Shown here: piece after piece, positions 6,106 through 33,655 of the stretch
Layout: each line of letters begins with the position of its first letter
Numbering within the stretch: the stretch's first letter is position 1
NCBI RefSeq assembly: GCF_016937515.1
Contig: NZ_JAFHKM010000002.1
Coordinates: 3,529,001-3,593,000 of the forward strand
Source: Cohnella algarum
GTDB taxonomy: Bacteria > Bacillota > Bacilli > Paenibacillales > Paenibacillaceae
DNA length: 64,000 nucleotides
Direction of reading: 5' to 3'
The notes under the pieces: generated by a model
Told to the model about the DNA's origin: nothing
The model's input: only the letters and a program-made list of their open reading frames with translations
Databases searched by the model: none
Translations under genes and position numbers: made by a program

Positions 6106-6176
6106 ATGGTATACTTCGGCACGGATGGGGGCAACGCCTGCCATAACATATGTCGAATTAAGTAAGGAATAGATTG

Positions 6177-6530
6177 CTAAATGACCGTAGCGGCGGTCAC
6201 TTTCGGGTGAGCCTGCCGCTGGCTGAGCGAAAGTCCGTCCAGCAGCCAGCGGAGCTCGCGGGTCGTGACCGTGACCGGATCGCTGTGATCCCTGGGCCAC
6301 TGGAACGTGCCGCGCTCGAGCCGGCGGTAGAACAGCCAGAAACCGTTGTGCTCCCAATACAAGATCTTTAACTTGTTCCGCTCGCGGTTGCAAAAGACGA
6401 ACAAGCATGGAGAGAATGGATTCAGTCCGAGCCCCTCTTGGACAAGAGCAGCCAATCCGTCGATGGATTTACGTAAATCCGTGCTGCCACAAGCCAGAAA
6501 TACCTGACGGCTGGTTAATTCGCTCAGCAT
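6177..6530 (-). CDS. tnpB: IS66 accessory protein TnpB, 117 aa
   Basis: This is the second gene of the IS66 element, required for transposition of many members, though its biochemical role is unclear. Family signs are TDLRKSIDGLAALVQ near the N-terminus, PCLFVFCNRERNKLKILYWE in the middle and the RLERGTFQWP block. It overlaps the end of tnpA by a few bases, which suggests coupled translation. It appears intact at normal length. Confidence 0.9.
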   Translation of the reverse strand: MLSELTSRQVFLACGSTDLRKSIDGLAALVQEGLGLNPFSPCLFVFCNRERNKLKILYWEHNGFWLFYRRLERGTFQWPRDHSDPVTVTTRELRWLLDGLSLSQRQAHPKVTAATVI

Positions 6531-12294: not shown

Positions 12295-13395
12295 ATGCAG
12301 AAGACAGGTCATCGATCAAAGGCGGGCGTCCGCGGAAGCAAGGAAGGCTATCGAAAAGGCTGGGACGACGGCTACCATCTCGGCATGTGCGAAGCGATCG
12401 TTCGCCGCACGCCGGGCTACGCGTCGCCCCCGAAAAATTTGCGGGTGTTGTATATTCCGCAAGGCTTCGAATCGGTCGACCGCGGCGTCATCGAGGGGCT
12501 GTCGCAAACCGTGTCCGCCCTCATCGTCGGAAATGCCGAGACGATGGCGGATCAGGCGCGGGAACACGCTCCCGATCTCGTTTTGGTGATGAACGGGCTT
12601 CACGTTTTTCCCGCCGATCATTTGGAGCAGGTGGCTCGCATACGCGCAATGGGGTGCCGGACGGCGATCTGGTTTGCCGACGATCCTTATTTTACGGTGG
12701 AAACGGCGGAAATCGCGCCGCATTACGACTGGGTGTTTACGCATGAGCTCAGCTGCGCGGACTGGTATCGAAGCCTCGGCTGCGCGAATGTCCATTACCT
12801 GCCGCTCGCGGCGAGCATTGCCTGCTATCGACCCGCTCATATCGAACCGCAATACCGCAGCGACGTTTGCTTTATCGGCACGGCGTTTCCGAACCGGGCG
12901 CTGTTTTTCGACCGGATGGCCGAATTTTTGGCGGGACTGCGAACGGTCATTATCGGGGGCTTATGGGAAACGCGCCTCGCGAACTACTCCCTGCTCCAGG
13001 ATCGGATTCGCCCCGGCTTCACGTCGCCCGACGAATGCGCCAAATATTACGCGGGGGCCAAAATCGTGCTTAATTTGCACAGGCAGACGGAAGAAGAGAA
13101 AAATACGGCGAACCTTCCCGGAAAATCGATCAATCCGAGAACGTACGAAATCGCCGCGAGCGGCGCGCTGCAGCTTACCGACATTCGGGAGGATTTGCCG
13201 CTTTATTATGCGCCGGGGAGGGAAATCGCGGTTTATTCCTCGCCCGAGGAAGCCCAGCACAAAATCCGCTATTACCTGAATCGCGAAAGCGAGCGGCGAA
13301 GCATGGCCTGGAACGCTCTCGTGCGAACCCGGAAGGAGCATACGTACGCCCACCGGCTGGATCGGCTGCTTCGGGTCGTGTTCGGAGAGGCATAG
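12295..13395 (+). CDS. CgeB-like glycosyltransferase, 366 aa
   Basis: The protein matches the CgeB-type family (DUF3880-like N-terminal half, Glyco_trans_1-like C-terminal half); in Bacillus subtilis CgeB acts in spore outer-layer maturation. Motifs are LVLVMNGLHVF, TAIWFADDPYF, VHYLPLAAS, VCFIGTAFPNRA, and INPRTYEIAASGALQLTD as the nucleotide-sugar site. The first about 30 residues are basic and carry the repeat EGYRKGWDDGYHLG, which recurs in the next two genes. GGAGGTGATGGG precedes ATG 12295. It is first in a plus-strand cluster of glycan genes. The sugar donor and acceptor are not evident. Confidence 0.8.
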   Translation: MQKTGHRSKAGVRGSKEGYRKGWDDGYHLGMCEAIVRRTPGYASPPKNLRVLYIPQGFESVDRGVIEGLSQTVSALIVGNAETMADQAREHAPDLVLVMNGLHVFPADHLEQVARIRAMGCRTAIWFADDPYFTVETAEIAPHYDWVFTHELSCADWYRSLGCANVHYLPLAASIACYRPAHIEPQYRSDVCFIGTAFPNRALFFDRMAEFLAGLRTVIIGGLWETRLANYSLLQDRIRPGFTSPDECAKYYAGAKIVLNLHRQTEEEKNTANLPGKSINPRTYEIAASGALQLTDIREDLPLYYAPGREIAVYSSPEEAQHKIRYYLNRESERRSMAWNALVRTRKEHTYAHRLDRLLRVVFGEA

Positions 13396-13430
13396 CCAAC
13401 CAATCCGCGGAAAGGAGGATGCCGGAGGCG

Positions 13431-14566
13431 ATGGCTAAAAGGAAGCGAAACGAAAGCTTGCCCGATCATGAGCTTGCGTTTAAGAGCCGAAGGAACGAAG
13501 GCTACGCAACCGGCCGGCAAATCGGCTATCTTCTCGGGCGATGCGAAGCCGTTCGTCGGCAGGCGCAAGTCGTTCCGGAGCGGAAATGGAATGTGAAAAT
13601 ACTGTACGTAACGTCAGGAAAAGGTTATCCGTACTCGCCGCTTGACGAGGCGATCATCCACGGTTTGCGGGTCGTCGCGCGGGAGGTCGTCGTTTTCGAG
13701 CAAAGCCCGGAAACCAAATCAAAGCTCGCCGCGGAAGCACTTGCGCACAAACCGGACCTGGTGCTGGTGCTGGAGAGCCTCCATTTGGATCTTCAATCGA
13801 TTTACCGCATCCGCCAGGCCGGCATACCGACGGCGGTCTGGTTTGCCGACGACCCTTATTACACCGACATGACGGATAAAATCGCGCCTCATTTCGATTA
13901 CGTTTTTTCGCTTGAAATGAACTGCCTCGATTTTTACCGCCAGTTGGGCTGCAAGGAGGTTCACTACTTGCCCTTTGCCGCCGACACCCGGAAATTCCGC
14001 CCGATCCATCTCGATCTGGTGCTGCGGAAGGATTTTTGTTTTATCGGCAGCGCTTTTTGGAACCGGGTCAAGGCGTTCGACGAGCTTGCGCCGTATTTGG
14101 CGGGCAAAAAAAAGTACATTTGCGGACTTTGGTGGGACCGCTTGAAAAATTACCGGCTGCTCGAACGCGATATCGATTTGGGGCGCTGGCTGACCCCGGA
14201 GGAGACGGCCCGAATCTACAACGCCTCCAAAGTCGTTCTCAACATGCATCGGGCGCATGACGACGAGACGTACAACTTCAACAGCCGAAAAATTCCCGCG
14301 AGCTCGCCCAATCCCCGGATGTTTGAAATCGCGGCATGCGGGACGCTGCAGTTGGTCGACAACCGGGGGACCTTGGCCGGTTTTACAAGCTGGGCGAGGA
14401 GGCGCTCTCATACTCTTCGCTCGGGGAGCTGATCGAAATCGGCGAATTTTATTTGAAGAACGAAAGCAAACGGCAGGAAGTCGCGGTCCGGGCGCTCAGG
14501 CGCACGTTGACGGAGCATACGTACCCGAAGCGGCTTGCCCAGATGATGGGCGTCATTTTCGGATGA
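13431..14566 (+). pseudogene. Second CgeB-like glycosyltransferase, frameshifted near the C-terminus
   Basis: This is a paralogue of the preceding gene, with RRNEGYATGRQIGYLLG, TAVWFADDPYY, VHYLPFAAD, FCFIGSAFWNR and SPNPRMFEIAACGTLQLVD in the same order. The frame breaks after LVDNRG at a run of five G (14365-14369). The expected continuation DLGRFYKLGEEALSYSSLGE is in the next frame and runs to the stop at 14566. One added G would give a protein of about 379 residues. The start is ATG 13431, with AAAGGAGG upstream; ATG 13419 is too close to that site. The break may be real, slippage-prone, or a consensus error. Confidence 0.75.
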
Positions 14567-20058: not shown

Positions 20059-20371
20059 ACGGATGGAGCAAACGCTGGCGCAGTTGGAAACGGCGATATC
20101 TTCGTGCATCCAAGAATGGAAGCGGGATAACGACGAAACGGGCTACGAACGCTTTCTGCAGTCGCTTGACCTGCTGGAAGCGATGGCGGACGCCGCGGCC
20201 GCGGATGGCGGCAGCGAGCCTGCGAAGCTTGTCCCGCTCCTGACGAAGCTGCATGCCCATGTGCGGAACCGGGACATCGTCGCGATCGTCGACGAATTCG
20301 AATGGAGCCTCATTCCGTTTGTTCGGGATTGGCGAAAGGTTGTGACCGCAAATGCCGGAAATCCGGGTTGA
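20042..20371 (+). CDS. Small helical protein of unknown function, 109 aa
   Basis: The frame overlaps the methyltransferase upstream by 17 bases and the Maf-type gene downstream by 20, which argues strongly that it is translated. The sequence is alpha-helical and acidic (EQTLAQLETAISSCIQEWK, VDEFEWSLIPFVRDWRKVV), with no signal peptide or membrane segment. It resembles small FliT/FlgN-like helical chaperones only in size and composition, so I assign no function. An ATG at 20048 is an alternative start. Confidence 0.65.
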   Translation: MRMSRERMEQTLAQLETAISSCIQEWKRDNDETGYERFLQSLDLLEAMADAAAADGGSEPAKLVPLLTKLHAHVRNRDIVAIVDEFEWSLIPFVRDWRKVVTANAGNPG

Positions 20372-22277
20372 CGAAGACGAACATGGCGGCAACGGCGACG
20401 GATTATTCCGCCGCAACCTGGCGCTTCTTCAGGAACCGCTGCAGCGGCGGATTTTGCAGGCGGAGGCGGAGGAAGCGAACGGCCGGATCGAGGTGCTGCG
20501 GACAGCCTCGGGACTGCCGGTCGCGCGTTACGGGAGCGTAGACACGTCCGCGATGATCAACGGCGCCGATCCTCTCGGACAGGCGAAGGAATGGTGCGAC
20601 CAAATTCCGCTCGAGCAGGTCGGCGCGCTATTCGTTTACGGCTGCGGCTTCGGGTATCCGCTGTTCGAAATTGCGACCCGGAAACATCCGGAGACGCTGG
20701 TGTTCGTATTCGAGCCCGATATCCGGCTGTTTGCCGCGATGCTTCGCGAGTTTCATCTGGAGCCTTGCCTTCGTTCGCGAAAATTCGCCTTTTTCGTCGG
20801 CCGCTACGAGGAATTCGCGCCGGAGTTCGAACGGCTGATGTCGTCCGACATTTTCCACGGGTGCACGGCTCCCACGCTTGCCTTCGCTCCCGGATCCAGG
20901 CTGATGAAACGCGAATGCTTCCGCATTCACGAACGGGTTTTCGAGTTTTTCATGCTGCAGCTGGAAAAAATGGGGAACGATCATTACGATTCCGTGCTCG
21001 GGTTTCATCAGATCGTCGACAATGTGGACGAAGTGCTCGAAAATCCGTACTTGAGCTGTTTGAAAGACCGGTTTGCGAACGTTCCGGCGTTCATTATCGC
21101 CAACGGCCCTTCGCTCGACCGGGCGATTCCGGCGTTGAAGGAAGCGTGCGGCAAAGCGCTTATCGTGGCCAGCGAATCCGCCGTCACCCCGCTGCTGCGC
21201 AACGGAATCGTGCCGGACGCGGTTTGCGTATCGGAACGCTCGGAGCGAAGCTATCGGCGTCATTTCGAGGGGAAGGCGTATCCGGGGGAGCTGGCGCTGC
21301 TCGGCATGGCCGTCATCGATCCGCGGATTTTTTCCTCGTTCAAGGGGCCGAAAATTCCCGTTTTTCGCAGTCTGGAATCGAACGGCTCGTTTTTCAACCA
21401 GATCGTGGGGGACGGCAGCGCGCTGTTCGGCGGGAAAAGCTCGGCGCATTTCGCCTTCGAAGCGGCTCTCTACATGGGGGCCGACCCGATCGCGCTCGTC
21501 GGGCAGGATTTGGCGTACGGCCGGGACGGATCGACGCACAGCGCCCAATCGGTGTACGCCGAGGCGGCGCACCGGGAGGCGGTGCAAAGGCTCCGGGAAC
21601 AGCCGACCGTCCATTTGCCGAGCAACGACGGCCGGATGATTCCCTCGAACGCCATCTGGTACCAATTCAAGCTCATCTTCGAGCAGATGATCGCGGAACA
21701 TCCGCGGGCGACGGTGATCAATACGACGGAAACGGGCGCCGCGATCGGCGGAACGGCCGTCGCCAAGCTTTCGGACGTCGTCAGGGCGTACTGCGGCGAG
21801 CCGCTGCGGGTCAAACCCCATGAAATCATAAACGAAGCCAAGCGTTCGCTCGACCGGGACGACCGAACCCGCAAGCGGGAGCGGCTGGCGATCGAGCTGG
21901 CCAAATACAGGGACGTATATCGTTCCCTGGAGCAGCGCATGGCGAAGCGGAAAAGCGGCTGCGAGCGGCTCGCCGAGGAAGCGCGAGCCGGCACGGACGC
22001 GCTCGTTCCGGGCTTCCGCCGCGAATACGAGCGAAACCGGAAGGAAATCATGCAATTTCTTTCGCCCGACATGCACATCCTTTACTTTCAGCAAGTCATC
22101 ATGGCCGGATATTACAAATTGAACGCGCTCGGTCCGCCGTCTTCGCCGAACGCCTTCCGCAAGGCGTTCCTCGTTCAATACGAGACGTTCGAGCATCTGC
22201 GTTTCGTTTGCGAGAGCTTGGTCCGGAATATCGGGATCGCCCTCGGCAAGCTTGCGGACGGGGACGGACGAAAATGA
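20352..22277 (+). CDS. Maf-type (DUF115) motility-associated-factor glycosyltransferase, 641 aa
   Basis: Maf proteins transfer nonulosonic acids (pseudaminic or legionaminic type) to Ser/Thr of flagellins. Family signs here are LFVYGCGFGYPLFEIA, LVFVFEPDIRLFAAML, the sialyltransferase-like core AFIIANGPSLDRAIPALK with SESAVTPLL, GIVPDAVCVSERSE, and ALVGQDLAYGRDGSTHS. A helical C-terminal region follows. Length is typical. Its stop overlaps the start of a paralogue by four bases (ATGA). CMP-nonulosonate genes (neuB, neuC, cytidylyltransferase) follow downstream and could supply the donor. No flagellar gene is nearby, so the acceptor is open. Confidence 0.88.
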   Translation: MPEIRVDEDEHGGNGDGLFRRNLALLQEPLQRRILQAEAEEANGRIEVLRTASGLPVARYGSVDTSAMINGADPLGQAKEWCDQIPLEQVGALFVYGCGFGYPLFEIATRKHPETLVFVFEPDIRLFAAMLREFHLEPCLRSRKFAFFVGRYEEFAPEFERLMSSDIFHGCTAPTLAFAPGSRLMKRECFRIHERVFEFFMLQLEKMGNDHYDSVLGFHQIVDNVDEVLENPYLSCLKDRFANVPAFIIANGPSLDRAIPALKEACGKALIVASESAVTPLLRNGIVPDAVCVSERSERSYRRHFEGKAYPGELALLGMAVIDPRIFSSFKGPKIPVFRSLESNGSFFNQIVGDGSALFGGKSSAHFAFEAALYMGADPIALVGQDLAYGRDGSTHSAQSVYAEAAHREAVQRLREQPTVHLPSNDGRMIPSNAIWYQFKLIFEQMIAEHPRATVINTTETGAAIGGTAVAKLSDVVRAYCGEPLRVKPHEIINEAKRSLDRDDRTRKRERLAIELAKYRDVYRSLEQRMAKRKSGCERLAEEARAGTDALVPGFRREYERNRKEIMQFLSPDMHILYFQQVIMAGYYKLNALGPPSSPNAFRKAFLVQYETFEHLRFVCESLVRNIGIALGKLADGDGRK

Positions 22278-24207
22278 CGGCCTCGGAGCATCCGGACTTG
22301 AGGCGGAACGAAACGTTTGCCCGGAACGCGGCGTTTCTTCCGGCGCCGCTGCGGCGGCGCATCCTGGAAGCGGACCCGGAGGAAATCCGAAGCGGGATCG
22401 CCGTCGCCCGGTCCGAAGACGGGCATCCGGTCTGCAGCATGGCCGAAGGCGGCCGAACGTTTCGAATCAACAGCCTGCGGCCGCAGGACCAGGCGAAGCG
22501 CTGGTGCGGCCAAATTCCGTTCGGCGAGGTCGGCGCCCTGTTCGTATACGGCTGCGGCTTCGGCTACCCGCTGCTGGAAATCGCCGAACGAAAGGATCCG
22601 GACACGCTCGTTCTCGTGTTCGAGCGGAGCCTGCCCTTGTTCGCGGCGATGCTTGCCCACGTCGATCTGGAGCCGGTATTCCGCACGGGGAAGTTCGCCT
22701 TTTTCGTCGGGCGGCCGGATTCGTTTTCGCCGGAGTTCGCGCGGTTGATTTCGCAGCCGGAGCTGTTTTTTCTGACGGCGCCGACGCTTGCCTTCGCTCC
22801 GGAAGCGCGGCTGTTCAAGCGGGAATACGTTCAAATTCATGCGCGCGCGCTCGAACTGCTCGCCCTGCAAACGAAAAAAATCGGAAACGACCATTACGAC
22901 TCCGTTCTCGGGTTCCGCCAGACGATCGCAAATTTGCCCGAAGTGCTGGGAAATCCGTACGCAAGCTGCCTGAAAGACAAGTTCAAGGGCGTACCGGCCT
23001 TCATTATCGCGAACGGCCCGTCGCTTGACAAGGACATTCCCGAATTGAAGCGGGCGGTCGGCAAAGCGCTTATCCTGTGCAGCGAATCGGCGATCGCGCC
23101 GCTGATGAAAAACGGGATCGTGCCCGATGCGATCTGCGTTTCGGAACGTTCGGAGAAAAGCTATCGGCGTCATTTCGAACGCGACCGGTATCCGGAAAAG
23201 CTGGCGCTGCTCGGTCTTTCGGTCATCGACCCGCGCATTTTCGCGTCTTTCGAAGGGCCGAAAATTCCGATTTTTCGCCGTTTCGATTCCGACAGCCGGC
23301 TCGTTAACGGGGCGATCGGGGACGGCAGCGCGTTTTTCGGCGGAAGAAGCTCGGCGCATCTCGCGTTCGAGGCCGCGGTGTACATGGGAGCGAATCCGGT
23401 CGTGCTGGTCGGGCAGGATCTCGCGTACGGCCCCGGCGGGGAGACGCACAGCAGGCAGTCGGTGTATGCGGAAGCTTCGCAGCGGGAAACGGTCGAACGC
23501 ATCAAGGCGTCGCCGGACGTTTACTTGCGGGGCAACGACGGGCGAACGGTCCGTTCCAACGCGAAGTGGAACCATTTCAAGCTGATCTTCGCCGAGATGA
23601 TCAAGGAAAATCCGCATGTCGCCGTGCTGAATGCGACGGAAGCGGGCGCCGTCATCAAGGGCGCGAAATACGCGCCGCTGGGGCGCGCGATCGACGCTTA
23701 TTGCGCGAGGGACCTGCCGGTCGCTCTGCATGAGGTCGTTCGCGACGCGAAGCGGGCGGTGGACGTCGCAAGCCGAAAACGGAGGCTTGGGACGCTTCAG
23801 GTCGAGCTCGAAAAGTATGCGGCGATCTACGACGCGCTCGATTCGTTCTGCGCCCGGCAGCAGGAGCGGTGCGAGCGGCGGATCGGGGGCCGGAAGCCGG
23901 ACCCGATTCCGTCTCCGCCTCCCAAGGCGAACGGCGGGGCGAATCCGCCGACTTCGCGCTCGAAGCGCTGCCGCTGTTTCTGGATCCGCACCTGCATATG
24001 ACGTATTTTCAACAGGCGCTGTTCGCCGGCCTTCACCCCTTGAACGAGCTCGGGCCCGCCCGTTCCCGGGAAAAGCGCGACGCTTCGCTGGGCATGCAGG
24101 CCGAACTTTTCGGCTGGCTTGGTTTGGTGTGCCGAAGCCTTGCCTCCCATTTTCGCGACGCGGCCGGAAGCATCCGCTCATGGAGAGACGGCATGCCGCC
24201 GGAATGA
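22274..24207 (+). pseudogene. Second Maf-type glycosyltransferase, frameshifted before the C-terminal domain
   Basis: This tandem paralogue of the preceding gene has the same blocks: LFVYGCGFGYPLLEIAE, AFIIANGPSLDKDIPELK, GIVPDAICVSERSEKSY and VLVGQDLAYGPGGETHS. The first frame runs on to about 24,001 but goes off-family after CERRIGG. The true C-terminal part (FALEALPLFLDPHLHMTYFQQ) is in another frame and ends at 24,207. A single missing base between 23,880 and 23,945, for example at the five-G run at about 23,884-23,888, would restore about 644 residues. ATG 22274 overlaps the upstream stop, so translation is coupled. Confidence 0.78.
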
Positions 24208-24243
24208 ATAAGATAGGATGCGAAAGGAACGGGGGAGATCAGG

Positions 24244-25296
24244 GTGACAAATCCGCCTTCTATCCTGCGGGACGCATGCCTTGTCGTGGCGGAAATCGCG
24301 CAGGCGCACGACGGCAGCCTCGGCACGGCGCACGCGCTGATCGACGCGGCGGCCGAGGCCGGCGCGGACGCCGTCAAATTCCAGACGCATATCGCCTCGG
24401 AGGAGAGCACGTCCCGCGAGCCGTGGAGGGTCAAGTTCAGCCGGCAGGACGCCACCCGCTACGATTATTGGAAACGGATGGAGTTTACGAAGGAGCAATG
24501 GAGGGGACTGAAGGCGCACGCGGAGGAGCGGGGGCTGATCTTCTTCAGTTCGCCGTTCTCGCCGCTTGCGGTCGATTGGCTGGAGGAGCTCGGCGTTCCG
24601 TTCTGGAAGGTGGCTTCCGGCGAAATCGCGAACAAGCCGTTGATCGATCGGATGCTGCGAACGGGCAAGCCGATGCTGGTGTCGACCGGCATGTGCACGC
24701 TGGAGGAGCTGGACGCGTGCGTCGGCCGGATCCGGGAGGCGGGCGGCGAGGTCGTCGTCTTTCAGTGCACGTCCGAATATCCGTGTCCGCCGGAGCGCGT
24801 CGGCCTGAATCTGCTCTCTTTTTACCGGGAGCGGTATGGCTGCCCGGTCGGCCTGTCCGACCATTCGGGCGAAATCTATCCGGGCCTGGCGGCCGCCTGG
24901 CTTGGCGCCTCGATGATCGAGGTGCACCTCACGCTGTCCAAGCGCGCGTTCGGACCGGACGTGCCGGCTTCGCTGACGCCGGAGCGGCTGAGGCAGCTCG
25001 CGGAGGGCGTCAAGTTCATGCGAAGGATGCGGGACTCTCCGGTCGATAAGGAAACGGCGGCCGGCCGGCTCGGGGATCTGCGGGCGATTTTTTACCGCAG
25101 CCTCGTGGCCCGATCGGACCTGAAGGCGGGCACGGTGCTTACGGAGGACATGATCGCCGTCAAAAAGCCGGGAGGCGGCCTTTCGCCGGACCGTCTGGGC
25201 GAGCTGATCGGCAAAAGGCTGCGGCGCTCCGTGCCCGCCGATCATCCGTTCGGCGAGTCCGATTTTGCGGCGGAAGAGGAGGGCGACGGGCGTTGA
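24244..25296 (+). CDS. neuB: Nonulosonic acid synthase (NeuB/LegI family), 350 aa
   Basis: It condenses phosphoenolpyruvate with an N-acyl-mannosamine-type sugar to a nine-carbon nonulosonic acid. The TIM-barrel part begins VVAEIAQAHDGSLG and DAVKFQTH, with FFSSPFSP, WKVASGEI, STGMCTLEELD, FQCTSEYPCP and GLSDHSG. A C-terminal SAF domain follows from about residue 290 (ARSDLKAGTVLTEDMIAVKKPG). GTG 24244 follows GGGGGAGATCAGG. Its last bases overlap the TTG start of neuC. Whether the product is sialic, legionaminic or another acid cannot be read from sequence. Confidence 0.9.
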   Translation: MTNPPSILRDACLVVAEIAQAHDGSLGTAHALIDAAAEAGADAVKFQTHIASEESTSREPWRVKFSRQDATRYDYWKRMEFTKEQWRGLKAHAEERGLIFFSSPFSPLAVDWLEELGVPFWKVASGEIANKPLIDRMLRTGKPMLVSTGMCTLEELDACVGRIREAGGEVVVFQCTSEYPCPPERVGLNLLSFYRERYGCPVGLSDHSGEIYPGLAAAWLGASMIEVHLTLSKRAFGPDVPASLTPERLRQLAEGVKFMRRMRDSPVDKETAAGRLGDLRAIFYRSLVARSDLKAGTVLTEDMIAVKKPGGGLSPDRLGELIGKRLRRSVPADHPFGESDFAAEEEGDGR

Positions 25297-26456
25297 ACAT
25301 TTGCGTGGTTTTGGTGGACCGCGCCAATTATGGCCGCTTGAAGCCGGTCATGGCCGAGCTGCGGACGCGTCCCGGCGTCCGGATGCAGGTCGTCTGCGCC
25401 GGAACGATGCTGCTCGACCGGTTCGGCAAGGCGAAGCAGGTCGTGGAAGCGGACGGTTTTCCGATTGACGAAGAGGTGTATCTGGAAATCGACGGTTCGC
25501 TGCCCGCCACGATGACGAAATCGATCGGACTCGGCATTATCGAGTTTTCCAGCGTTTTTCGCAAGCTTGATCCCGATTTCGTCCTGCTGATCGGCGACCG
25601 GTACGAGGCGCTCGCGGCCGCCATCGCCGCCGTGTACCAGAATCTGTGCCTCATCCATCTGCAGGGCGGAGAAGTGACCGGTTCGATCGACGAGGCGACG
25701 CGCCATGCGATCACGAAGCTCGCCCATTATCATTTTCCGGCCACGAGGCGCTCGGGGCGGTACATCGTCCGGATGGGGGAACGGCCGGAGACGGTGTTTC
25801 CGCTCGGCTGCCCGAGCGCGGACGTCGTCGCGGCCGCTTCCGGGGACGTGCCGGCCGAGCGCATCGCCGCCGCGGGCGTCGGGGCGGAAATCGACTTCGG
25901 CAAGCCGTATCTGCTGACGCTGTTCCATCCCGTCACGACCGAATTCGCCGCGGCGGAAGATCAGATGAACGAGCTGCTGGCGGCCGTCAAGGAGACGGGC
26001 ATGCAAATCGTGCTGCTGTGGCCGAACATCGACGCGGGCGCGGATTCCGTTTCCGGCGCGATCCGCCGGTTTCGCGAATTCAACCGCGACGTTCCGCTGC
26101 ACGCGTTCAAAAATTTCGAACCCGAGAACTACGTTCCGCTGCTGCGGCAGGCGGCCTGTTGCGTCGGCAATTCCTCCAGCTTCGTCCGGGAGGCTTCCTT
26201 CCTCGGGACGCCGGTCGTGCTGGTCGGCTCCAGGCAGGACGGGAGGGAGTGGAGCGGGGCGGTAAAGCGGGTAGAGCCGATCCGGGAGGCGATCGCGGAG
26301 GCGATTGCCGCGCAGCTCGCCCACGGGCGATATCCGCCAAGCGGCTTGTACGGCAAGCCCGGCGTGTCGGCGCGGATCGCGGACAAAATCGCGACGCTGC
26401 GCCCGTACGGCCAAAAAAGGCTGGCGTACGGAAAAGAAAAGGCGACGGGGGTGTGA
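25293..26456 (+). CDS. neuC: Hydrolysing UDP-N-acetylglucosamine 2-epimerase (NeuC/LegG type), 387 aa
   Basis: It makes ManNAc (or a di-N-acetyl analogue) from the UDP-sugar, the substrate for NeuB. The GT-B-like fold is shown by ICVVLVDRANYGRLKPVMAEL at the N-terminus, LLIGDRYEALAAAIAA, IHLQGGEVTGSIDEATRHAI, LFHPVT, LLWPNIDAG, and NSSSFVREASFLGTPVVLVGSRQ with the UDP-binding residues. The start is TTG 25293, sharing TTGA with the neuB stop. No dehydratase or aminotransferase of the legionaminate pathway lies in the window, so a ManNAc-to-Neu5Ac route is the simplest reading. Confidence 0.9.
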   Translation: MNICVVLVDRANYGRLKPVMAELRTRPGVRMQVVCAGTMLLDRFGKAKQVVEADGFPIDEEVYLEIDGSLPATMTKSIGLGIIEFSSVFRKLDPDFVLLIGDRYEALAAAIAAVYQNLCLIHLQGGEVTGSIDEATRHAITKLAHYHFPATRRSGRYIVRMGERPETVFPLGCPSADVVAAASGDVPAERIAAAGVGAEIDFGKPYLLTLFHPVTTEFAAAEDQMNELLAAVKETGMQIVLLWPNIDAGADSVSGAIRRFREFNRDVPLHAFKNFEPENYVPLLRQAACCVGNSSSFVREASFLGTPVVLVGSRQDGREWSGAVKRVEPIREAIAEAIAAQLAHGRYPPSGLYGKPGVSARIADKIATLRPYGQKRLAYGKEKATGV

Positions 26457-26460
26457 TCGA

Positions 26461-27408
26461 TTGAAGCGGTTGGTGTACAGCGGACCGCCCGAAACCGTCG
26501 GCATCGTGGAGAAGGAGATGAACGGGCGATTCGAGGTTGTCGCTCCCGGCGAGGAACCGGAATCGCTGCTTCCGGAAATTGAGCGGTGCGCGGTGTTTCT
26601 GGACGCCTCGATGAAGACGAGGCTGACCGAGGAAACGATCGCGAAGGCAAAGGCGCTTGAGCTGGTCGCGACGGCGACGACCGGGGCGACCCATATCGAC
26701 GCCGAGGCGCTGCGGCGGCGGGGCATCCCGCTTCTGACGCTGAAAGGGCAAACGGAGTTCCTGCGCGAGCTGACGCCGGCGGCCGAGCATTCGTGGCTGC
26801 TCCTGCTCGCGTGCGCCAGACGGCTGCGCGGCGCGATCGAAGGAACGCTGCGCGGCGAATGGAACCGGCAGCGTTATCCGGGCGTCATGCTGCGCGGCAA
26901 AACGCTCGGCATCGTCGGCATGGGCCGCATCGGCACCTGGATGGCGAAGTACGCGGATGCGTTCGGGATGAAGGTCGTCGCCTACGACCCGTATGCGGAC
27001 GAATTTCCGCCGCGGACGGAACGGGCCGGGTTGGACCGGCTGCTGGCCGTATCGGATTTCGTCAGCGTTCACGTTCACGTGACGGAGGAGACGAAAGGGC
27101 TGCTGAGCGCGGACAAAATATCGGGCATGAAGCCGGGTGCGGTCCTGATCAACACGTCGCGCGGCGAGGTGGTCGACGAGCGGGCGCTGCTCGAGGCGCT
27201 CCGCTCGGGCAAGCTTGCCGCGGCCGGGCTCGACGTGCTGGCGGACGAACCGGACATCGGCCGGAGCGAGCTGTGGCAATACGCCCGGCAATCGGAGCGT
27301 ATGATCGTTACCCCGCATATCGGGGGCTACTGTCCGGAGACGGTCGAGCGGGCCGTCGCGTTCGCCTGCGGGCGCATCCGCGATTACTGCGAAGGAGGCG
27401 CGCCATGA
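26461..27408 (+). CDS. D-2-hydroxyacid dehydrogenase family protein, 315 aa
   Basis: This is an NAD-dependent D-isomer-specific 2-hydroxyacid dehydrogenase. The Rossmann motif GIVGMGRIGTWMAKY lies at about residues 150-164, the domain carries NTSRGEVVDERALLEAL with the catalytic Arg region, DVLADEPDIG holds the Glu, and VTPHIGGYCPET holds the catalytic His. TTG 26461 follows GGGGGTG. It lies between neuC and a ThDP enzyme and overlaps the latter by four bases (ATGA), so it is part of the nonulosonate operon. Its substrate there is unknown. Confidence 0.85.
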   Translation: MKRLVYSGPPETVGIVEKEMNGRFEVVAPGEEPESLLPEIERCAVFLDASMKTRLTEETIAKAKALELVATATTGATHIDAEALRRRGIPLLTLKGQTEFLRELTPAAEHSWLLLLACARRLRGAIEGTLRGEWNRQRYPGVMLRGKTLGIVGMGRIGTWMAKYADAFGMKVVAYDPYADEFPPRTERAGLDRLLAVSDFVSVHVHVTEETKGLLSADKISGMKPGAVLINTSRGEVVDERALLEALRSGKLAAAGLDVLADEPDIGRSELWQYARQSERMIVTPHIGGYCPETVERAVAFACGRIRDYCEGGAP

Positions 27409-29112
27409 GCGAGCTGGCCCGCCGGCTCGCCGGGGAGCTGGTCCGCGCGGGTGTCCGGCACGCCTTCGGCGTCGCCGGCAGCGGGATCAGCTACGATCTG
27501 ATCGCGTGCCTCCGGAGCTCGGCGTTCCGTACTATCCGGCCGCCCACGAAGCGGCCGCCGCGCTGATGGCCGGGGCGTGCGGCCGGGACGGCCGGCTGCG
27601 GGCGGCGGCGATCGGCATTAAAGGGCCGGGACTTGCGAATTTCGTCCCGGGCATGCTCGCCAACCGGTACGAGGCGAGGGCCGCGCTTACGGCGAGCGAA
27701 TCGTATCCGTCCGCCGCCCCGGCTTACGCCATGCACAAGCGGGCCGACCATGCCGCGCTGGCAAGCGCGGCCGCGAAAGGGTATGCCCGGCTGGACCGCG
27801 AGCTTCGCGTCGTCGGATCGCTTGCCGAGCTCGCCGCCCGGGAGACGCCGGGTCCGGTCCATCTGGACATCGCCGAAGAGCCGGAAGACGCGGCCGGGGT
27901 CCGTTGCTTTTCGGCCGTCGATTCGGGCCTGCCGGCTTGCGGCGAACCGGGCGAACCGGGCGAAGCGGCCGGATCGGACGGCGGGAGGCGGGCGCTGGAG
28001 CGCGCGCTCGAAGCCGTTCGGCGCTCGGAGAGGCCGGCGATCGTTCTCGGCTCGGTGGCGGCCCGGCGGCTCGGTTCGTTCCGCTGGGACCGAATCGGCG
28101 TGCCGGTGCTGACGACGGCGGCCGCCAAAGGGTGCGTCGACGAGCGGAGCGATTTTTACGGCGGCATCGTCACCGGAGAAATCGCGAAGCTGTCGCCGGA
28201 GCGAAACGTTCTGCGGGAAGCGGACCTCGTCGTCGGCATCGGCCTCCGAAATACGGAGGTCGTTCGCACGGCGCTGACCGAAGCCGAAATCGTGATCGCG
28301 GACCATGCCGCTCCCGGGCTGAACGCGGGCTTCGGGGCGTCGGCCGTCGCGCATCCGGACGATCTGGAAGCCGCGTGCGCGGAGCTGGCGGAGGCCCTTT
28401 CCGCCAAAAGCTGGGGGCGGAGTATCTCCGGACCTACTGGCGGGACGTGGACCGCGAGCTGTTTCGCGGCTCGTGGCTTCCGGCGGCCGCGCTGCGCGAA
28501 ACGCAGGAGCGGCTGGAAGGCAAGGAAACGATTCTGACGGCGGACACGGGACTGTTCTGCACCGTCGCCGAAACGGTATGGAAGGCGCGACGGCCTTTCG
28601 AATATTGCGGCAGCGGCAACGGCCGGTTCATGGGCATTTCGGTGCCTTCCGCCATCGGCCTGGCCGTCGCCCATCCGAACGCGACGGTCGTTTGCGTCGC
28701 CGGCGACGGCGGCATCCGCCCTTATCTGGCCGAGCTGAAGCTGGCCGTCGCCTGCAAGCTCAGGCTTGTCGTGCTGTACATGACCGACGGGGGGTACGGC
28801 TCGATCCGGCGGGCGACGGCATCCCGAACGGTCGGCGGCGTCCCGACGGGCGGCCGTCCGGAAACCGGCCGTCCGGAAACCGGCCGTCCGGGAGCCGGCA
28901 TGCCGCCGGGCGGACACCCGGCGGAAATCGCCGATTCGAGCTGGTACCGGCCGATGGCCGCGCTCGGCTGGGAAGCGGCGCGGGCGGAGAGCGTCCGGCA
29001 GCTGCGGCGGGCGCTTGCGCGAATCGACCCGGACCGGATGGAGGCTCCGTTTTTTTTGGAATTGGCGTTCGACAAGGCCCGATATACGTCGATGACGGTA
29101 AATTTGAGGTGA
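27405..29112 (+). pseudogene. Thiamine-diphosphate enzyme (acetolactate synthase-like), two apparent frameshifts
   Basis: The three ThDP-family domains are all present but in three frames. ATG 27405 starts the PYR domain (HAFGVAGSGISYDLIACL); after about 27,510 it continues in the next frame (ELGVPYYPAAHEAAAALMAG, with the catalytic Glu). The central domain follows, and at the five-G run near 28,413 the frame changes again into EYLRTYWRDVDREL. The PP domain GDGGIRPYLAELKLAV binds ThDP and Mg, although the usual Asn-Asn is MTDGGYG here. Each break is fixed by one added base. An insertion with GRPETG repeats lies near 28,850-28,915. The enzyme probably makes or breaks a C-C bond on a 2-oxo acid. 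Confidence 0.75.
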
Positions 29113-29117
29113 AAAAA

Positions 29118-30158
29118 ATGCCTGCCAAGCATATTCTAGTTCTCGGTGCCGGATCGGTCGGCAAGCGGCACTTGCGCAACTTCGCTTCCTTGGGCTGCCG
29201 CGTATCCGCCATGGACCCCCGCCGGGACCGGCTGGACGAAGCGGGGAAAGAGACGGAGCTCGCGCACGCTTTCGCCGCCTTGGACGAGGCGTGGCGCGCG
29301 GACGATTTCGATGCCGTCGTCATCGCCTCGCCTCCCGCCTTCCATGTCGACCAATGCCTGCAATGCCTGCAGCGGGGCAAGCCGGTGCTGCTGGAAAAGC
29401 CGCTCTCCCCGTCGCTTGCCGATGCGCGGCGGCTCCCGGCTTCGGATGCGGGCCGTCCGGCGTCCCCCGCCCTGCTGATCGGCTACACGTACCGGTGGTG
29501 GGCCTCGATCGTCCATTTGCGCGACATGCTTCGCGGCGGGGCGATCGGCAAGCCGCTGTACGCCGATTTCGTCATGAGCGCCCATCTCGCCGATTGGCAT
29601 CCGTGGGAGCCCTATCAGCAGTTTTTTATGGCCAGCGAGAAGCTGGGCGGCGGCGCCCTGCTCGACGAGAGCCACTTCATCGATTTGCTCGTCTGGCTTT
29701 TCGGCATGCCGAAAAGCGTATACGCCAACGTCGAGCGCATCAGCTCGCTTGAAATCGAAACCGACGATCATGTGGACATTTTGGCATCATACGACTGGAG
29801 CTTTCGCGCGCGAATCCATTTGGATCTGTACGGGCGGCCGCACGAGAAAACGATTCGGATCGTCGGCGAGAGCGGAACGCTCGTCTGGACGTTCGAACCG
29901 GATGCCGTCCGCATCGGGCTCGGGGCCGGGCCGGACTGGAAGGAAATCCGCTTCGGCCATGAGCGGAACGAGATGTTTCTGCGGCTTGCCGGGCATTTTC
30001 TGGATATCGTCCGCGGAGACGCCGAGCCGGCGTGCGCGCTTCGGGACGGGCTTAACGTCATGGAGGTCGTCGAGGCGTGCCGGCAAAGCTCGCGAAGCGG
30101 CCGCTCCGCGGAGCTTCGTTCCGTCGGGAAGGACGGTGAAAGCTATGTATCTGAATAA
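29118..30158 (+). CDS. Gfo/Idh/MocA-family NAD(P)-dependent sugar dehydrogenase, 346 aa
   Basis: The N-terminal Rossmann fold HILVLGAGSVGKRHLRNFASLG (residues about 5-26) and VVIASPPAFHVDQ lead to the family signature KPVLLEKPLSPS (catalytic Lys) and GYTYRWWASIVHLRDML. The C-terminal beta-sheet domain has GGGALLDESHFIDLLVWLFG with the catalytic His/Asp region. GAGGTG is 6 bases before ATG 29118. Its stop lies inside the next gene's start, so the two are coupled. It may oxidise or reduce a sugar intermediate or nonulosonic acid; the substrate is unknown. Confidence 0.87.
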   Translation: MPAKHILVLGAGSVGKRHLRNFASLGCRVSAMDPRRDRLDEAGKETELAHAFAALDEAWRADDFDAVVIASPPAFHVDQCLQCLQRGKPVLLEKPLSPSLADARRLPASDAGRPASPALLIGYTYRWWASIVHLRDMLRGGAIGKPLYADFVMSAHLADWHPWEPYQQFFMASEKLGGGALLDESHFIDLLVWLFGMPKSVYANVERISSLEIETDDHVDILASYDWSFRARIHLDLYGRPHEKTIRIVGESGTLVWTFEPDAVRIGLGAGPDWKEIRFGHERNEMFLRLAGHFLDIVRGDAEPACALRDGLNVMEVVEACRQSSRSGRSAELRSVGKDGESYVSE

Positions 30159-30870
30159 AAGCGTCATCGCCATCGTTCCGGCGCGCAGCGGAAGCAAAGG
30201 CATTCCCGGCAAAAACATGCGCAAGCTGTCGGGACTTACGCTTATCGGCCATGCGGGAACATGCCTGAGCCGGCTGCCGTGGCTCGATGCCAAGGTGATT
30301 TCGTCCGATTGTCCGGCATACATCGAGGAAGGCGGACGTTACGGGCTTGACGCCCCATTCGTTCGCCCCGCCGAATTGAGCGGGGATACGGCCGGGGCGG
30401 TGGAGACGGCCGTTCATGCGCTGGCGGAAGCCGAAAGGGCGTACGGCCGAACCTACGACGTCGTGCTGCTGATCGAGCCGACGAGTCCGCTGCGGGAGGC
30501 CGAGGACGTGGAGCGGGCGACGGAGCTGCTCATCCGCTCGCAGGCGGATTCGGTCGTGACGGTGAGCGCGCTGCCGTCCAAATTCCATCCGCGGAAAATA
30601 TTCGGCCTGGACGGAGGCAAGCTTGCGTTTTACGAGCGGGACGGCGCCGAAATCGCCTATCGGCAGGCGCTGGACGACAAGTACTGGCGCAACGGCGTTT
30701 GCTACGCGCTGACGAGGGATTGCCTTTTGAACAAGCGAAAAATCGTGACGGATCGCACGCTGCCGCTTCCGATCGGTCGCGAGGTCGTCAATATCGACGA
30801 GCCCGTCGAGCTCGAATGGGCGGATTTTTTGCTTCGCAAGCGCGGAAAAAAGGAGGCGAGGCGCCGATGA
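30145..30870 (+). CDS. neuA: CMP-nonulosonic acid synthetase (NeuA/PtmB-like cytidylyltransferase), 241 aa
   Basis: It activates a nonulosonic acid with CTP to the CMP-sugar used by sialyltransferase-like enzymes. The signature IVPARSGSKGIPGKNMRKLSG at residues 9-29 binds CTP. Further blocks are VISSDCPAYIEEGGRYG, LIEPTSPLREAEDVERA and VVNIDEPVELEWADF near the end. The start is ATG 30145, overlapping the dehydrogenase upstream by 14 bases. Length is at the short end for NeuA and fits the PtmB subgroup. Confidence 0.88.
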   Translation: MYLNKSVIAIVPARSGSKGIPGKNMRKLSGLTLIGHAGTCLSRLPWLDAKVISSDCPAYIEEGGRYGLDAPFVRPAELSGDTAGAVETAVHALAEAERAYGRTYDVVLLIEPTSPLREAEDVERATELLIRSQADSVVTVSALPSKFHPRKIFGLDGGKLAFYERDGAEIAYRQALDDKYWRNGVCYALTRDCLLNKRKIVTDRTLPLPIGREVVNIDEPVELEWADFLLRKRGKKEARRR

Positions 30871-31817
30871 ACTGTCCGTTATGCGGACAAAAGGAGCCGC
30901 AAATGCTGACCGACCGCCTGCGGAACGGGGAACCGCTCCGCGTCTTGTACTGCCCGGATTGCGACGCGGGCTATCTCGAAGACCGGAAAACCGGCGACGA
31001 GCTGAAGGCGTACTATCGGGACGCGTACAGGAAAGAATACAAGCCGGATTTGCGCAAACAGGCGGATGCCGGCCGGCTGTTCGACATCGCCGCCCGGTTC
31101 CAGGAGGACAGGATCGCGCGGATCGAGCGCTACTTGCGCAAGGAAGCGTCCGTTTTGGACGTAGGCTGCTCGTCGGGCGCTTTTTTGTACCGGATCAAGG
31201 ACAAGGTCCAGGCGTTGGCCGGCGTCGAGCCGGATCCGGAGGCGGCCCGCTTTGCGTCGCGCGCGTGCGGCTGCCCGGTTTATGCGGGCTATTTGCCCGA
31301 GACGCCGCTGCCGAAAGGCTCGTTCGACGTCGTCTGCTCCTTTCAGGTAATGGAGCATGTCGAGGACCCGCTGGCGTTTTTGCTGCAAATGAAAGAGTAC
31401 GTGAAGGATGACGGGGTTTTGTGCGTCGAAGTGCCGAATTTGCGGGATGCGCTTGTCTCGGCGTTCGAGCTGCCGAACTACAGGCGTTTCTATTTTCGCA
31501 GCGCCCACCTGTTCTACTTCGGCGATCGCGGCTTGCGGCTGCTGATGGAACGGGCGGGGCTCGAGGGCGACGTCTTTTATTCGCAGGACTATCACTTTGT
31601 CAATCACATGAACTGGGCGCTGAGCGACAAGCCCCAGCCGAGCGCGGAGGACGGCATGGGGGAGCCGGCCTTTCCGCTGCGGCGGGATGCCGATCCGGAT
31701 GCCGGGGCCAGGCTGAACGGCTTCTTGCGCAGGGTGAACCGGGAGTACAAGGCGCTGCTGGAAGAGCTCGGCATAACGTCGAAAATCGGTTTCATCGCCC
31801 GCAAAAAGCGGGATTGA
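30867..31817 (+). CDS. Class I methyltransferase with N-terminal Cys4 zinc knuckle, 316 aa
   Basis: Cys3, Cys6, Cys29 and Cys32 form a zinc-ribbon-like knuckle. The SAM core begins near residue 93 with VLDVGCSSGAFLYRI, then LAGVEPDPEAARFA and SFDVVCSFQVMEHVEDPLAFL (methyltransferase type 23). This layout is typical of sugar C- or O-methyltransferases in deoxysugar and surface-glycan loci. It overlaps the cytidylyltransferase by four bases (ATGA). A methylated nonulosonic acid or rhamnose is a possible product; that is inference. Confidence 0.85.
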   Translation: MNCPLCGQKEPQMLTDRLRNGEPLRVLYCPDCDAGYLEDRKTGDELKAYYRDAYRKEYKPDLRKQADAGRLFDIAARFQEDRIARIERYLRKEASVLDVGCSSGAFLYRIKDKVQALAGVEPDPEAARFASRACGCPVYAGYLPETPLPKGSFDVVCSFQVMEHVEDPLAFLLQMKEYVKDDGVLCVEVPNLRDALVSAFELPNYRRFYFRSAHLFYFGDRGLRLLMERAGLEGDVFYSQDYHFVNHMNWALSDKPQPSAEDGMGEPAFPLRRDADPDAGARLNGFLRRVNREYKALLEELGITSKIGFIARKKRD

Positions 31818-31932
31818 CCGGAAGCGCCCGCCGCTGTCCGATCGGGAAAAGGGCGCTTCGGCCGCGCTCATCCGGGGAGAAGTCCAAGCCGGTCCCGTCC
31901 CCCTTTCATAGAATAGCCAAGGGGTGATACGG

Positions 31933-33021
31933 ATGAATGCGGTAATTATGGCCGGCGGAAAAGGCAACCGGTTCTGGCCGAGAAGCGTCGAGGCCAAGCC
32001 GAAGCAGTTTCTGGAGCTGACGGCGAGCGGAGAAACGATGCTGCAGGTAACGTACCGGCGCCTTCGTTCGTGGCTGCCGAGCGAGAACATTTACGTCTCC
32101 ACCGCGCAAAAATACGTTTCGCTCGTTCGCGAGCAATTGCCCGGCATCGACGAGAAAAGGATGATCGTAGAGCCGGAGCAGCGGGATACCGCTCCCGGCA
32201 TCGCGCTGGTCGCGCTCTCCTTCTTGGCTCGGGGCAACGGCGACGTGTTCGCGACGATTCCGTCCGACCATCATATCGGGGACGAGAAGGCGCTCGGCGC
32301 CGCTCTCCGCCAGGCCGCCTCCGTGGCGGAGGAAGAGGGAGCGATCGTGACGCTCGGGGTTGCGCCGACCCGCCCGGAGACGGGCTACGGCTATATCCGC
32401 GCGTCGGAATTGCCGGGCGGGAACGGCGTCTTCAAAGTTTCTTCCTTTATCGAAAAGCCGGACGCGGCAACGGCCGAGAAGCTGGTCCGGCAACGCCATG
32501 TATTTTGGAACAGCGGCATTTTCGTCTGGAAGCCGTCGACCGTCGCGCATTATATGGCGAAATTTCAGCCGGACATGTGGACTGCGCTTAACGAAGGGAC
32601 AGACCGGCTGGACGCCGTCTACAAGGGTTTGCCCGGCCTATCGGTCGATTACGCGATCTTGGAAAAAGCCGACCGCATTTATATGATTCCCGCCCGGTTC
32701 GAGTGGGATGACGTGGGCAGCTGGACGTCGCTGGAACGGGTTCGGGTTCCCGATGCCGACGGCAACGTCAAGGAAGGCTTCGTGGAAACGGTGGACAGCC
32801 GGAACAACATCGTGTTCTCCGAAAGCGCCCGCACGATCGTCATCGGGGCCAGCGATCTGATCGTCGTATCGACGGCGGACGGACTGCTGGTCTGTCACAA
32901 GTCGAGGGAGCAGAGCATCAAGACAGTGCTGCAGAGCTTGAAGAGCAAAGGGGACGGCGGGGACAGCGAGGACGGCGAGAACAGCGAGAACAGCGAGAAC
33001 AGCGAGAACAGCGGGACCTGA
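31933..33021 (+). CDS. manC: Mannose-1-phosphate guanylyltransferase, 362 aa
   Basis: It makes GDP-mannose from GTP and mannose-1-phosphate, feeding gmd/rmd about 17 kb upstream. Motifs are NAVIMAGGKGNRFWPRS (residues 2-18), the KPKQFLEL block, IVEPEQRDTAPGIAL, TIPSDHHIGD, FIEKPD, WNSGIFVWK and FEWDDVGSW. It lacks the C-terminal isomerase domain of bifunctional enzymes. The start is ATG 31933, seven bases after AAGGGGTGA. The last about 20 residues are an odd acidic tail (GDGGDSEDGENSENSENSEN) coded by 9-base repeats. Confidence 0.93.
   Translation: MNAVIMAGGKGNRFWPRSVEAKPKQFLELTASGETMLQVTYRRLRSWLPSENIYVSTAQKYVSLVREQLPGIDEKRMIVEPEQRDTAPGIALVALSFLARGNGDVFATIPSDHHIGDEKALGAALRQAASVAEEEGAIVTLGVAPTRPETGYGYIRASELPGGNGVFKVSSFIEKPDAATAEKLVRQRHVFWNSGIFVWKPSTVAHYMAKFQPDMWTALNEGTDRLDAVYKGLPGLSVDYAILEKADRIYMIPARFEWDDVGSWTSLERVRVPDADGNVKEGFVETVDSRNNIVFSESARTIVIGASDLIVVSTADGLLVCHKSREQSIKTVLQSLKSKGDGGDSEDGENSENSENSENSGT
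32953..33017 (+). repeat. Short in-frame 9-bp repeats at the manC 3' end
   Basis: GAGAACAGC repeats four times in a row (about 32,977-33,012), giving the Glu-Asn-Ser tail of ManC. The tract is prone to length change. Confidence 0.75.
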
Positions 33022-33170
33022 AGCCCGGCGGGCCGGAGCTTCCGCCTTTTCGGCACAAACGGGAACGAGGCGGGACAGGCTTTGGGCGGGCCGGCTTGGA
33101 AGCATCCGCACGGAGTAGACGCAAGCGGCGTCAGGTTCGCTGCGTATGGGGGACCCGGCGGCGGCGCGGA

Positions 33171-33655
33171 CGTGGTGCACCCAGTACGCTACATGGAGGA
33201 AATCCGACGCTGGCGGAGCGAATGTGATGCATCCAGTACGCTACATGGAGGAAATCCGACGCTGGCGGAGCGAATGTGATGCATCCAGTGCGCTACATGG
33301 AGGGAGTTCGGCGCTGGCGGAGCGAATGTGGCGCATCCAGTGCGCTACATGGAGGGAGTTCGGCGCTGGCGAAGCGAATGTGGCGCATCCAGTGCGCTAC
33401 ATGGAGGGAGTTCGGGGCTGGCGGCACGAATGTGGTGCATCTAGTGCGCTACATGGAGGGAGTTCGGCGCTGGCGGAGCGAATGTGGCGCATCCAGTGCG
33501 CTACATGGAGGGAGTTTGGCGCTGGCGGCACGAATGTGATGCATCCAGTGCGCTACATGGAGGGAATCCCGCGCTGTGGGCGCGAATGTGGTGCATCCAG
33601 TGCGCTACATGGAGGGAATCCGGCGCTGGGGGCGCGGATGTGGTGCACTCGGTTG
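33171..33655. repeat. Tandem array of nine 52-bp units downstream of manC
   Basis: The landmark CTACATGG occurs at 33189, 33241, 33293, 33345, 33397, 33449, 33501, 33553 and 33605, exactly 52 bases apart. Units differ by a few bases and are divergent only at the array ends. Each unit holds a small hairpin, GCGCA-TCCAG-TGCGC. There are no unique spacers, so it is not a CRISPR array. Because 52 is not a multiple of three, several frames stay open across it. Together with flanks this fills the 773-base gap between manC and the parB-like gene. Confidence 0.92.

Follow-up and report, generated by a model that had tools for sequence, protein, structure and literature searches.

Which sugar is made by a gene run that combines the enzymes of sialic acid synthesis with a D-2-hydroxyacid dehydrogenase (D2HDH), a thiamine diphosphate (ThDP)-dependent enzyme and a Gfo/Idh/MocA oxidoreductase, and is such a run a pathway at all? 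The question is raised by a 64,000-nucleotide stretch (the window) of the 6.2-Mb genome of Cohnella algarum, where one strand carries, from 20352 to 33021, genes in the order Maf, Maf, NeuB, NeuC, D2HDH, ThDP, Gfo/Idh, cytidine monophosphate (CMP)-sugar synthetase, methyltransferase and ManC. The original prediction, made from the sequence of the window, singled out the seven genes from NeuB to the methyltransferase as a candidate nonulosonic acid system. We find that six of them, NeuB, NeuC, D2HDH, ThDP, Gfo/Idh and CMP-synthetase, form a core that recurs across genomes. As far as literature searches go, this set is a variant of nonulosonic acid pathways that is not yet described; its product may be a sugar of the N-acetylneuraminic acid (Neu5Ac) type with an altered carbon skeleton.

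Recurrence of the gene set

Homologues were collected with the ThDP protein of a second Cohnella genome, locus L031, which we treat as one locus with L033, the record of Cohnella laeviribosi DSM 21336. This search gave 171 proteins at an E-value of 1e-30 among 8000 candidates scored. A profile scan based on an alignment of 32 ThDP sequences then covered one genome per species in 84,980 species, and the loci analysed are the best 80 of at least 531 confirmed places. A D2HDH gene stands directly before the ThDP gene in 34 of these 80 best loci. The division into 34 linked and 46 remaining loci was made by this match, so that D2HDH adjacency in the 34 is true by definition, whereas the other counts and the clade described below are not.

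Of the 29 linked loci whose downstream DNA extends to 1.3 kb or more, 24 have Gfo/Idh as the next gene after ThDP; where it extends to 2.1 kb or more (28 loci), CMP-synthetase comes next after Gfo/Idh in 21. NeuC is found near the linked ThDP gene in 27 of 34 loci and NeuB in 22, with neither in seven. Whole-genome searches at E 1e-30 for the 12 loci without a local NeuB located one in nine genomes (six at 53-56% identity, three at 34-38%) and none in three. In the remaining 46 ThDP loci, NeuB, NeuC, Gfo/Idh and CMP-synthetase are all unmatched, and D2HDH has one distant match. A midpoint-rooted tree built from 78 ThDP proteins places 32 linked proteins in one clade (support 0.86) with none of the 46 inside; the tree leaves out two of the 34, whose best ThDP match did not exceed 250 residues.

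The genes are repeatedly arranged in one of two orders, NeuB-D2HDH-ThDP-Gfo-CMP synthetase-NeuC or NeuB-NeuC-(methyltransferase)-D2HDH-ThDP-Gfo-CMP synthetase. In 12 of the 33 loci measured, the overlap between the D2HDH and ThDP genes is exactly 4 bases. Judging by their titles, the linked loci come from alpha-, gamma- and deltaproteobacteria, Acidobacteria, Verrucomicrobia, Omnitrophota, Parcubacteria-type bacteria, an anaerolinean, Prochlorococcus (ThDP identity 27%) and Cohnella. In the genome of L067 a NeuB gene lies on another contig (L122:4547-7865), next to genes for an epimerase and a nucleotide-sugar dehydrogenase. The presence of the same enzyme set in such distantly related bacteria probably reflects a real pathway; a chance gene neighbourhood is rejected by the co-occurrence counts and the single ThDP clade.

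Conservation in other genomes, which the original prediction had proposed as its check, is thus borne out by the D2HDH-ThDP-Gfo/Idh-CMP-synthetase adjacency, the nearby NeuC and NeuB and the single clade. The proposed set of seven has to be reduced to six, since the methyltransferase with an N-terminal Cys4 motif is matched in only 14 of the 34 loci, at 24-32% identity outside L033. A nucleotide-sugar dehydrogenase was considered as a different seventh member and rejected: it is nearby in five of the 34 loci, and among 22 whole genomes searched at E 1e-60 the homologues had 42-52% identity in 10 and 34-35% in four, with none in eight.

Among relatives of the window's genome the set is rare. 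Within its own family the ThDP protein occurs in three of 295 genomes, and the same three carry close NeuC proteins (73-100% identity), further NeuC matches in the family having 30-37%. Among 398 genomes of the wider Bacillota, one match at E 1e-90 was obtained, from the window's own genome; the genomes of L031 and L032 (the latter treated as Paenibacillus sp. sptzw28) were not reported from this sample. At E 1e-40 the ThDP protein had no hit in plasmid records.

The divergence of the six proteins, uncorrected for shared species history, is correlated in all 15 pairs, with 0 of 300 permutations reaching the observed value for each pair. Correlation is strongest between Gfo/Idh and CMP-synthetase (rho 0.85) and between NeuB and CMP-synthetase (0.80), a pattern in keeping with recognition of the modified sugar by the synthetase.

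Sugar type and enzyme features

The first steps resemble those of Neu5Ac synthesis. NeuC scores 337.2 bits against TIGR03568, above the cut-off of 235.9 for the hydrolysing epimerase expected in the canonical Neu5Ac pathway, and among solved structures is closest to the human GNE epimerase (222 bits; 171.9 for the diacetylbacillosamine epimerase). The best family for NeuB is TIGR03569 NeuB_NnaB, where its 311.5 bits remain under the Neu5Ac synthase equivalog cut-off of 399.65; its closest solved relative is SiaC/NeuB of N. meningitidis (185.4 bits), followed by SpsE (139.6) and PseI (134.6). For the CMP-synthetase the top NCBIfam model is PseF at 94.3 bits, under the cut-off of 205.7, and the closest solved protein is NeuA of N. 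meningitidis (89.5 bits). By resemblance, the three enzymes suggest an N-acetylmannosamine (ManNAc)-based, Neu5Ac-type start. The dehydratase, aminotransferase and acetyltransferase families of legionaminic (Leg) and pseudaminic (Pse) acid synthesis had no match in the scan, which covered 10 window proteins. On these proteins a Leg or Pse pathway is rejected for the run, and the earlier view that the genes do not make up a standard Leg or Pse pathway is supported.

Catabolic acetolactate synthases are the nearest solved relatives of the ThDP family by profile (204.3 and 198.5 bits), and the catalytic Glu49 is invariant in all 32 sequences. The family has an invariant His111-Lys112-Arg113 where catabolic acetolactate synthase has His-Gln-Ser, and Arg396 is also invariant; these features would suit an acidic partner.

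By profile, the solved structure closest to D2HDH is the phosphoglycerate dehydrogenase 1wwk (219.9 bits), although the score against TIGR01327 (198.6 bits) falls short of the 3-phosphoglycerate dehydrogenase cut-off of 454. Glu263 and His286 are kept in 23 of 23 aligned sequences and Arg234 in at least 90%; we take these to be the catalytic residues. The Arg of the VRS segment of 1wwk, which presumably has the substrate-loop role, aligns with an invariant Ala49 in D2HDH, which disfavours a phosphorylated substrate. A phosphoglycerate-based donor was therefore rejected despite the nearest profile.

In Gfo/Idh the EKP and DESHF(W)IDL regions are conserved among 21 aligned orthologues. Three presumably catalytic residues, the lysine of EKP and the aspartate and histidine of DESH, are present in 21 of 21. 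The window protein alone is closest to 3q2k (68.5 bits), which we take to be WlbA, whereas the family profile places 3ezy (97.5 bits) before 3q2k (94.3 bits). A WlbA-type 3-dehydrogenase is thus favoured by the single-sequence search and not by the family profile.

The window copy

The genes of the window are listed in Table 1. Six of the seven predicted genes are open reading frames of the kinds and in the places originally described; the exception is the ThDP gene, whose break had been overlooked. Compared with the protein of an intact relative, it gives matches in three successive frames, 27405-27521, 27521-28426 and 28405-29109. A 15-bp tandem repeat array (3.3 copies, 28851-28899) lies in its last part, and by-eye comparison shows this stretch to be missing from the L031 protein. 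No other close ThDP copy was found in the genome of the window, the next best having 24% identity. In L031/L033 and L032 the ThDP gene is intact.

A further gene had likewise escaped notice. The same two intact relatives carry, between NeuC and D2HDH, an additional gene that the window run lacks, a nucleotide-sugar dehydrogenase (TIGR03026, 411.6 bits, cut-off 189.8); the genome of the window has homologues elsewhere, at 54% and 45% identity. The window copy of the pathway is probably decaying, unless this region contains assembly errors.

Table 1. Genes of the run and its flanks, in window coordinates
Feature	Position	Strand	Observations
Maf-type (MptE-like) glycosyltransferase gene 1	20352..22277	+	MptE-like 115.6 bits, above cut-off; 66% identity to L031 protein
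Maf-type gene 2	22208..24207 (end approximate)	+	MptE-like 121 bits; Maf_flag10_N 19.8 bits, under cut-off 23.5
NeuB-type synthase	24244..25296	+	GTG start; homology begins 24277
NeuC-type hydrolysing UDP-GlcNAc 2-epimerase	25293..26456	+	TIGR03568 337.2 bits
D-2-hydroxyacid dehydrogenase (D2HDH)	26461..27408	+	TTG start; 2-Hacid_dh_C 184.1 bits
ThDP-dependent enzyme gene, broken	27405..29112	+	Homology in three successive frames
Gfo/Idh/MocA oxidoreductase	29118..30158	+	GFO_IDH_MocA 61.8 bits; C-terminal domains 62.6 and 65.5 bits; 77% identity to L031
CMP-sugar synthetase (CMP-transferase)	30145..30870	+	CTP_transf_3 47.3 bits
S-adenosylmethionine (SAM) methyltransferase, N-terminal Cys4 motif	30867..31817	+	Methyltransf_23 84.5 bits; accessory, outside core
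ManC-type mannose-1-phosphate guanylyltransferase, flanking	31924..33021	+	TIGR01479 288.2 bits, under cut-off 372.95

The second Maf-type gene contains a frame change near 23890-23902, where homology passes from frame 2 to frame 1. Upstream, a CgeB-like glycosyltransferase frame (13419-14432) has, by eye, an end unlike that of the neighbouring paralogue (12295-13395), which may be a further frame change. Two adjacent Maf-type genes 5' and a ManC-type gene 3' flank the set in L031/L033 as in the window. The product of the first Maf-type gene is likely, from its family, to transfer sugar to flagellin. The set has Maf-type neighbours in the window, in L031/L033 and in L032, which suggests flagellin as the target; among the 34 linked loci this holds for L033 only. 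Elsewhere the neighbours are glycosyltransferase, capsule, sulfotransferase or deacetylase-type genes, and there the sugar probably enters a surface polysaccharide. The ManC-type gene, which among the linked loci is likewise confined to L033, probably serves another sugar; directly 3' of it is a tandem array of 52-bp units (33160-33647, 9.4 copies, 90% matches). Two transposase-looking reading frames were noted by eye at 2047-3495 and 4531-6408.

Relation to known systems

The set resembles the Neu5Ac pathway (NeuC-NeuB-NeuA) in a NeuC above the curated cut-off and in a NeuB and CMP-synthetase closest to Neu5Ac enzymes; it differs in that D2HDH, ThDP and Gfo/Idh recur with it and in that NeuB and CMP-synthetase are below their cut-offs. 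With the Leg and Pse pathways it shares a nonulosonic acid route, CMP activation and, in the window, Maf genes, whereas their three characteristic families are unmatched, as described above.

The nearest precedent is sfmABCDE of Shewanella oneidensis, which the part of PMC3765264 available to us describes as encoding a NeuB-like protein, an IlvB-like ThDP enzyme, a reductase, a methyltransferase and an ATP-grasp protein. According to the same excerpts, loss of sfm genes changes flagellin mass, the ThDP enzyme is needed for flagellin modification, and the Shewanella nonulosonic acid bears a 236/250/264-Da moiety with an O-methyl group (PMC3765264). Both systems group a NeuB-like protein and an IlvB-like ThDP enzyme with an oxidoreductase and a SAM methyltransferase in a single operon that lies close to a Maf gene; the sfm operon, as given in that excerpted text, differs in its short-chain reductase and ATP-grasp protein and in having no NeuC, D2HDH, Gfo/Idh or CMP-synthetase (PMC3765264). 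SfmB and the ThDP enzyme studied here are likened by description only. The ATP-grasp family of the Sfm type was not matched among the 10 window proteins, and among the relatives with annotated neighbours it stands beside the D2HDH-ThDP-Gfo trio in L037 only.

A second point of comparison is provided by YerE-like ThDP enzymes, which transfer acyl units to keto sugars, according to the portion of PMC12247030 at hand. Our ThDP family shares with them its acetolactate-synthase-like affiliation, including the catalytic Glu, and its place in a sugar cluster alongside an oxidoreductase by which a keto sugar could be formed; in that portion, the known cases branch CDP-linked deoxy sugars, whereas here the setting is nonulosonic acid synthesis and the activity is predicted (PMC12247030). 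Literature searches found no paper describing the gene set, with PMC3765264, in its available part, as the sole near precedent; the accessible parts of PMC5109656, PMC4758666 and PMC7371886 contain no such set.

Proposed pathway and alternatives

We tentatively propose, with somewhat less than even confidence, that the six enzymes make a Neu5Ac-type nonulosonic acid that has an altered carbon skeleton and is activated with CMP, and that the window holds a probably decaying copy of this pathway. Going by their closest solved relatives, NeuC would convert uridine diphosphate N-acetylglucosamine (UDP-GlcNAc) to ManNAc, and NeuB would add phosphoenolpyruvate. All reactions after NeuB, and the order of the steps, are what we infer: Gfo/Idh would form a ketone by oxidising a hydroxyl, the ThDP enzyme would join a unit of two or more carbons from a 2-oxo acid to this ketone in a YerE-like branching, D2HDH would supply the 2-oxo acid or set its redox state, and a dedicated CMP-synthetase would activate the product. 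Ketone formation, carbon transfer, acid handling and activation make up the simplest chemistry in which every enzyme has a part. In Cohnella and Paenibacillus, two Maf proteins or one would probably load the sugar onto flagellin, and the methyltransferase may cap it. The wider proposal, that a dedicated ThDP carboligase acting on a Neu5Ac-type sugar defines an undescribed family of carbon-branched or extended nonulosonic acids in several phyla, is more doubtful.

Several observations weigh against this scheme. The pathway is known here from genes alone, 32 of the 34 linked loci come from metagenome-assembled genomes, the divergence correlations include shared species history, the ThDP gene is broken in the window itself, and simple C-branching gives D2HDH no necessary place. 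No orthologous Gfo/Idh follows ThDP in five of the 29 loci (L036, L044, L047, L048 and L054); L036 and L054 have distant Gfo/Idh genes upstream (28 and 26% identity), and in L048 an MBOAT acyltransferase gene occupies the usual place of Gfo/Idh. L037 and L038 carry the trio in genomes where NeuB is distant only (34% and 38%), and in L038 the trio stands among unrelated housekeeping-type genes (L038:2516-5959, Parcubacteria, amid genes for a Y-family polymerase, a sigma factor and an anaerobic ribonucleotide reductase). At L037 the run includes an ATP-grasp gene beside the trio, and a methyltransferase match as well; the ATP-grasp gene favours a route through an attached substituent there. Finally, the contig of L051 has on the other strand a second run (L121:5407-9564) of NeuB, D2HDH (39% identity to the window type), CMP-synthetase and a TviB-like nucleotide-sugar dehydrogenase, without ThDP or Gfo/Idh. 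D2HDH may thus act apart from ThDP, and the run adds weight to a route through a terminal carboxylate.

In the first of these routes, a small hydroxy acid formed by D2HDH and the ThDP enzyme would become an N- or O-acyl group of the nonulosonic acid, with O-methylation to follow, in line with the proposal for the Shewanella sfm genes in the available part of PMC3765264. The L037 and L048 neighbours and the methyltransferase matches in 14 of 34 loci agree with it. It would require a ligase or acyltransferase, no family of which was matched among the 10 window proteins scanned, and among the neighbours annotated in 30 relatives ATP-grasp (in the run at L037 only) and MBOAT occur once each. We regard this route as unlikely, and the lactyl-like N-acyl group offered in the original prediction loses support for the same reasons.

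Alternatively, a UDP-GlcNAc 6-dehydrogenase would form a uronic acid, D2HDH would oxidise the hydroxyl adjacent to its carboxylate, giving a 2-oxo acid, and the ThDP enzyme would decarboxylate or extend this acid, so that the tail of the sugar is changed. This would provide D2HDH and ThDP with the 2-hydroxy and 2-oxo acid that they need, and it is consistent with the nucleotide-sugar dehydrogenase between NeuC and D2HDH in L031/L033 and L032, with the L121 run and with the 54% homologue elsewhere in the genome of the window. The dehydrogenase is, however, near the set in few loci and without a match in eight of the 22 genomes, and the C5 hydroxyl of gluco- or manno-uronic acid has the L configuration, unsuited to a D-2-hydroxyacid enzyme. 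We hold this alternative to be distinctly unlikely.

It is very unlikely that D2HDH merely recycles NADH for Gfo/Idh through a 2-oxo acid, with the ThDP enzyme removing or supplying the acid and a keto or epimerised Neu5Ac as product. Enzymes of the WlbA group do couple to 2-oxoglutarate in recycling NAD, 3q2k is the closest solved structure to the window Gfo/Idh, and D2HDH is like phosphoglycerate dehydrogenases; yet with the family profile the unspecific dehydrogenase 3ezy outscores 3q2k, and a ThDP clade specific to the pathway, with invariant residues of its own, exceeds the needs of a helper.

Plain Neu5Ac with dispensable extra enzymes or, for the window only, a dead remnant without product is highly improbable: the first part agrees with the Neu5Ac-like closest structures and the second with the broken ThDP gene, the frame change in the second Maf-type gene and the missing dehydrogenase, but dispensable enzymes are not expected to stay together across phyla, NeuB and CMP-synthetase are under their curated cut-offs, and the frame changes could also be assembly errors.

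Implications

Nonulosonic acids, that is, sialic acid and its bacterial kin, are displayed on cell surfaces, where they are read by hosts, phages and neighbours. The known bacterial members vary one nine-carbon chain in its amino, acyl and stereochemical features, and an enzyme that makes carbon-carbon bonds in a recurrent set would broaden this chemistry. The set would also serve as a genetic marker for such sugars in genomes and metagenomes, and Cohnella laeviribosi DSM 21336, one cultured carrier with an intact set, makes the question testable.

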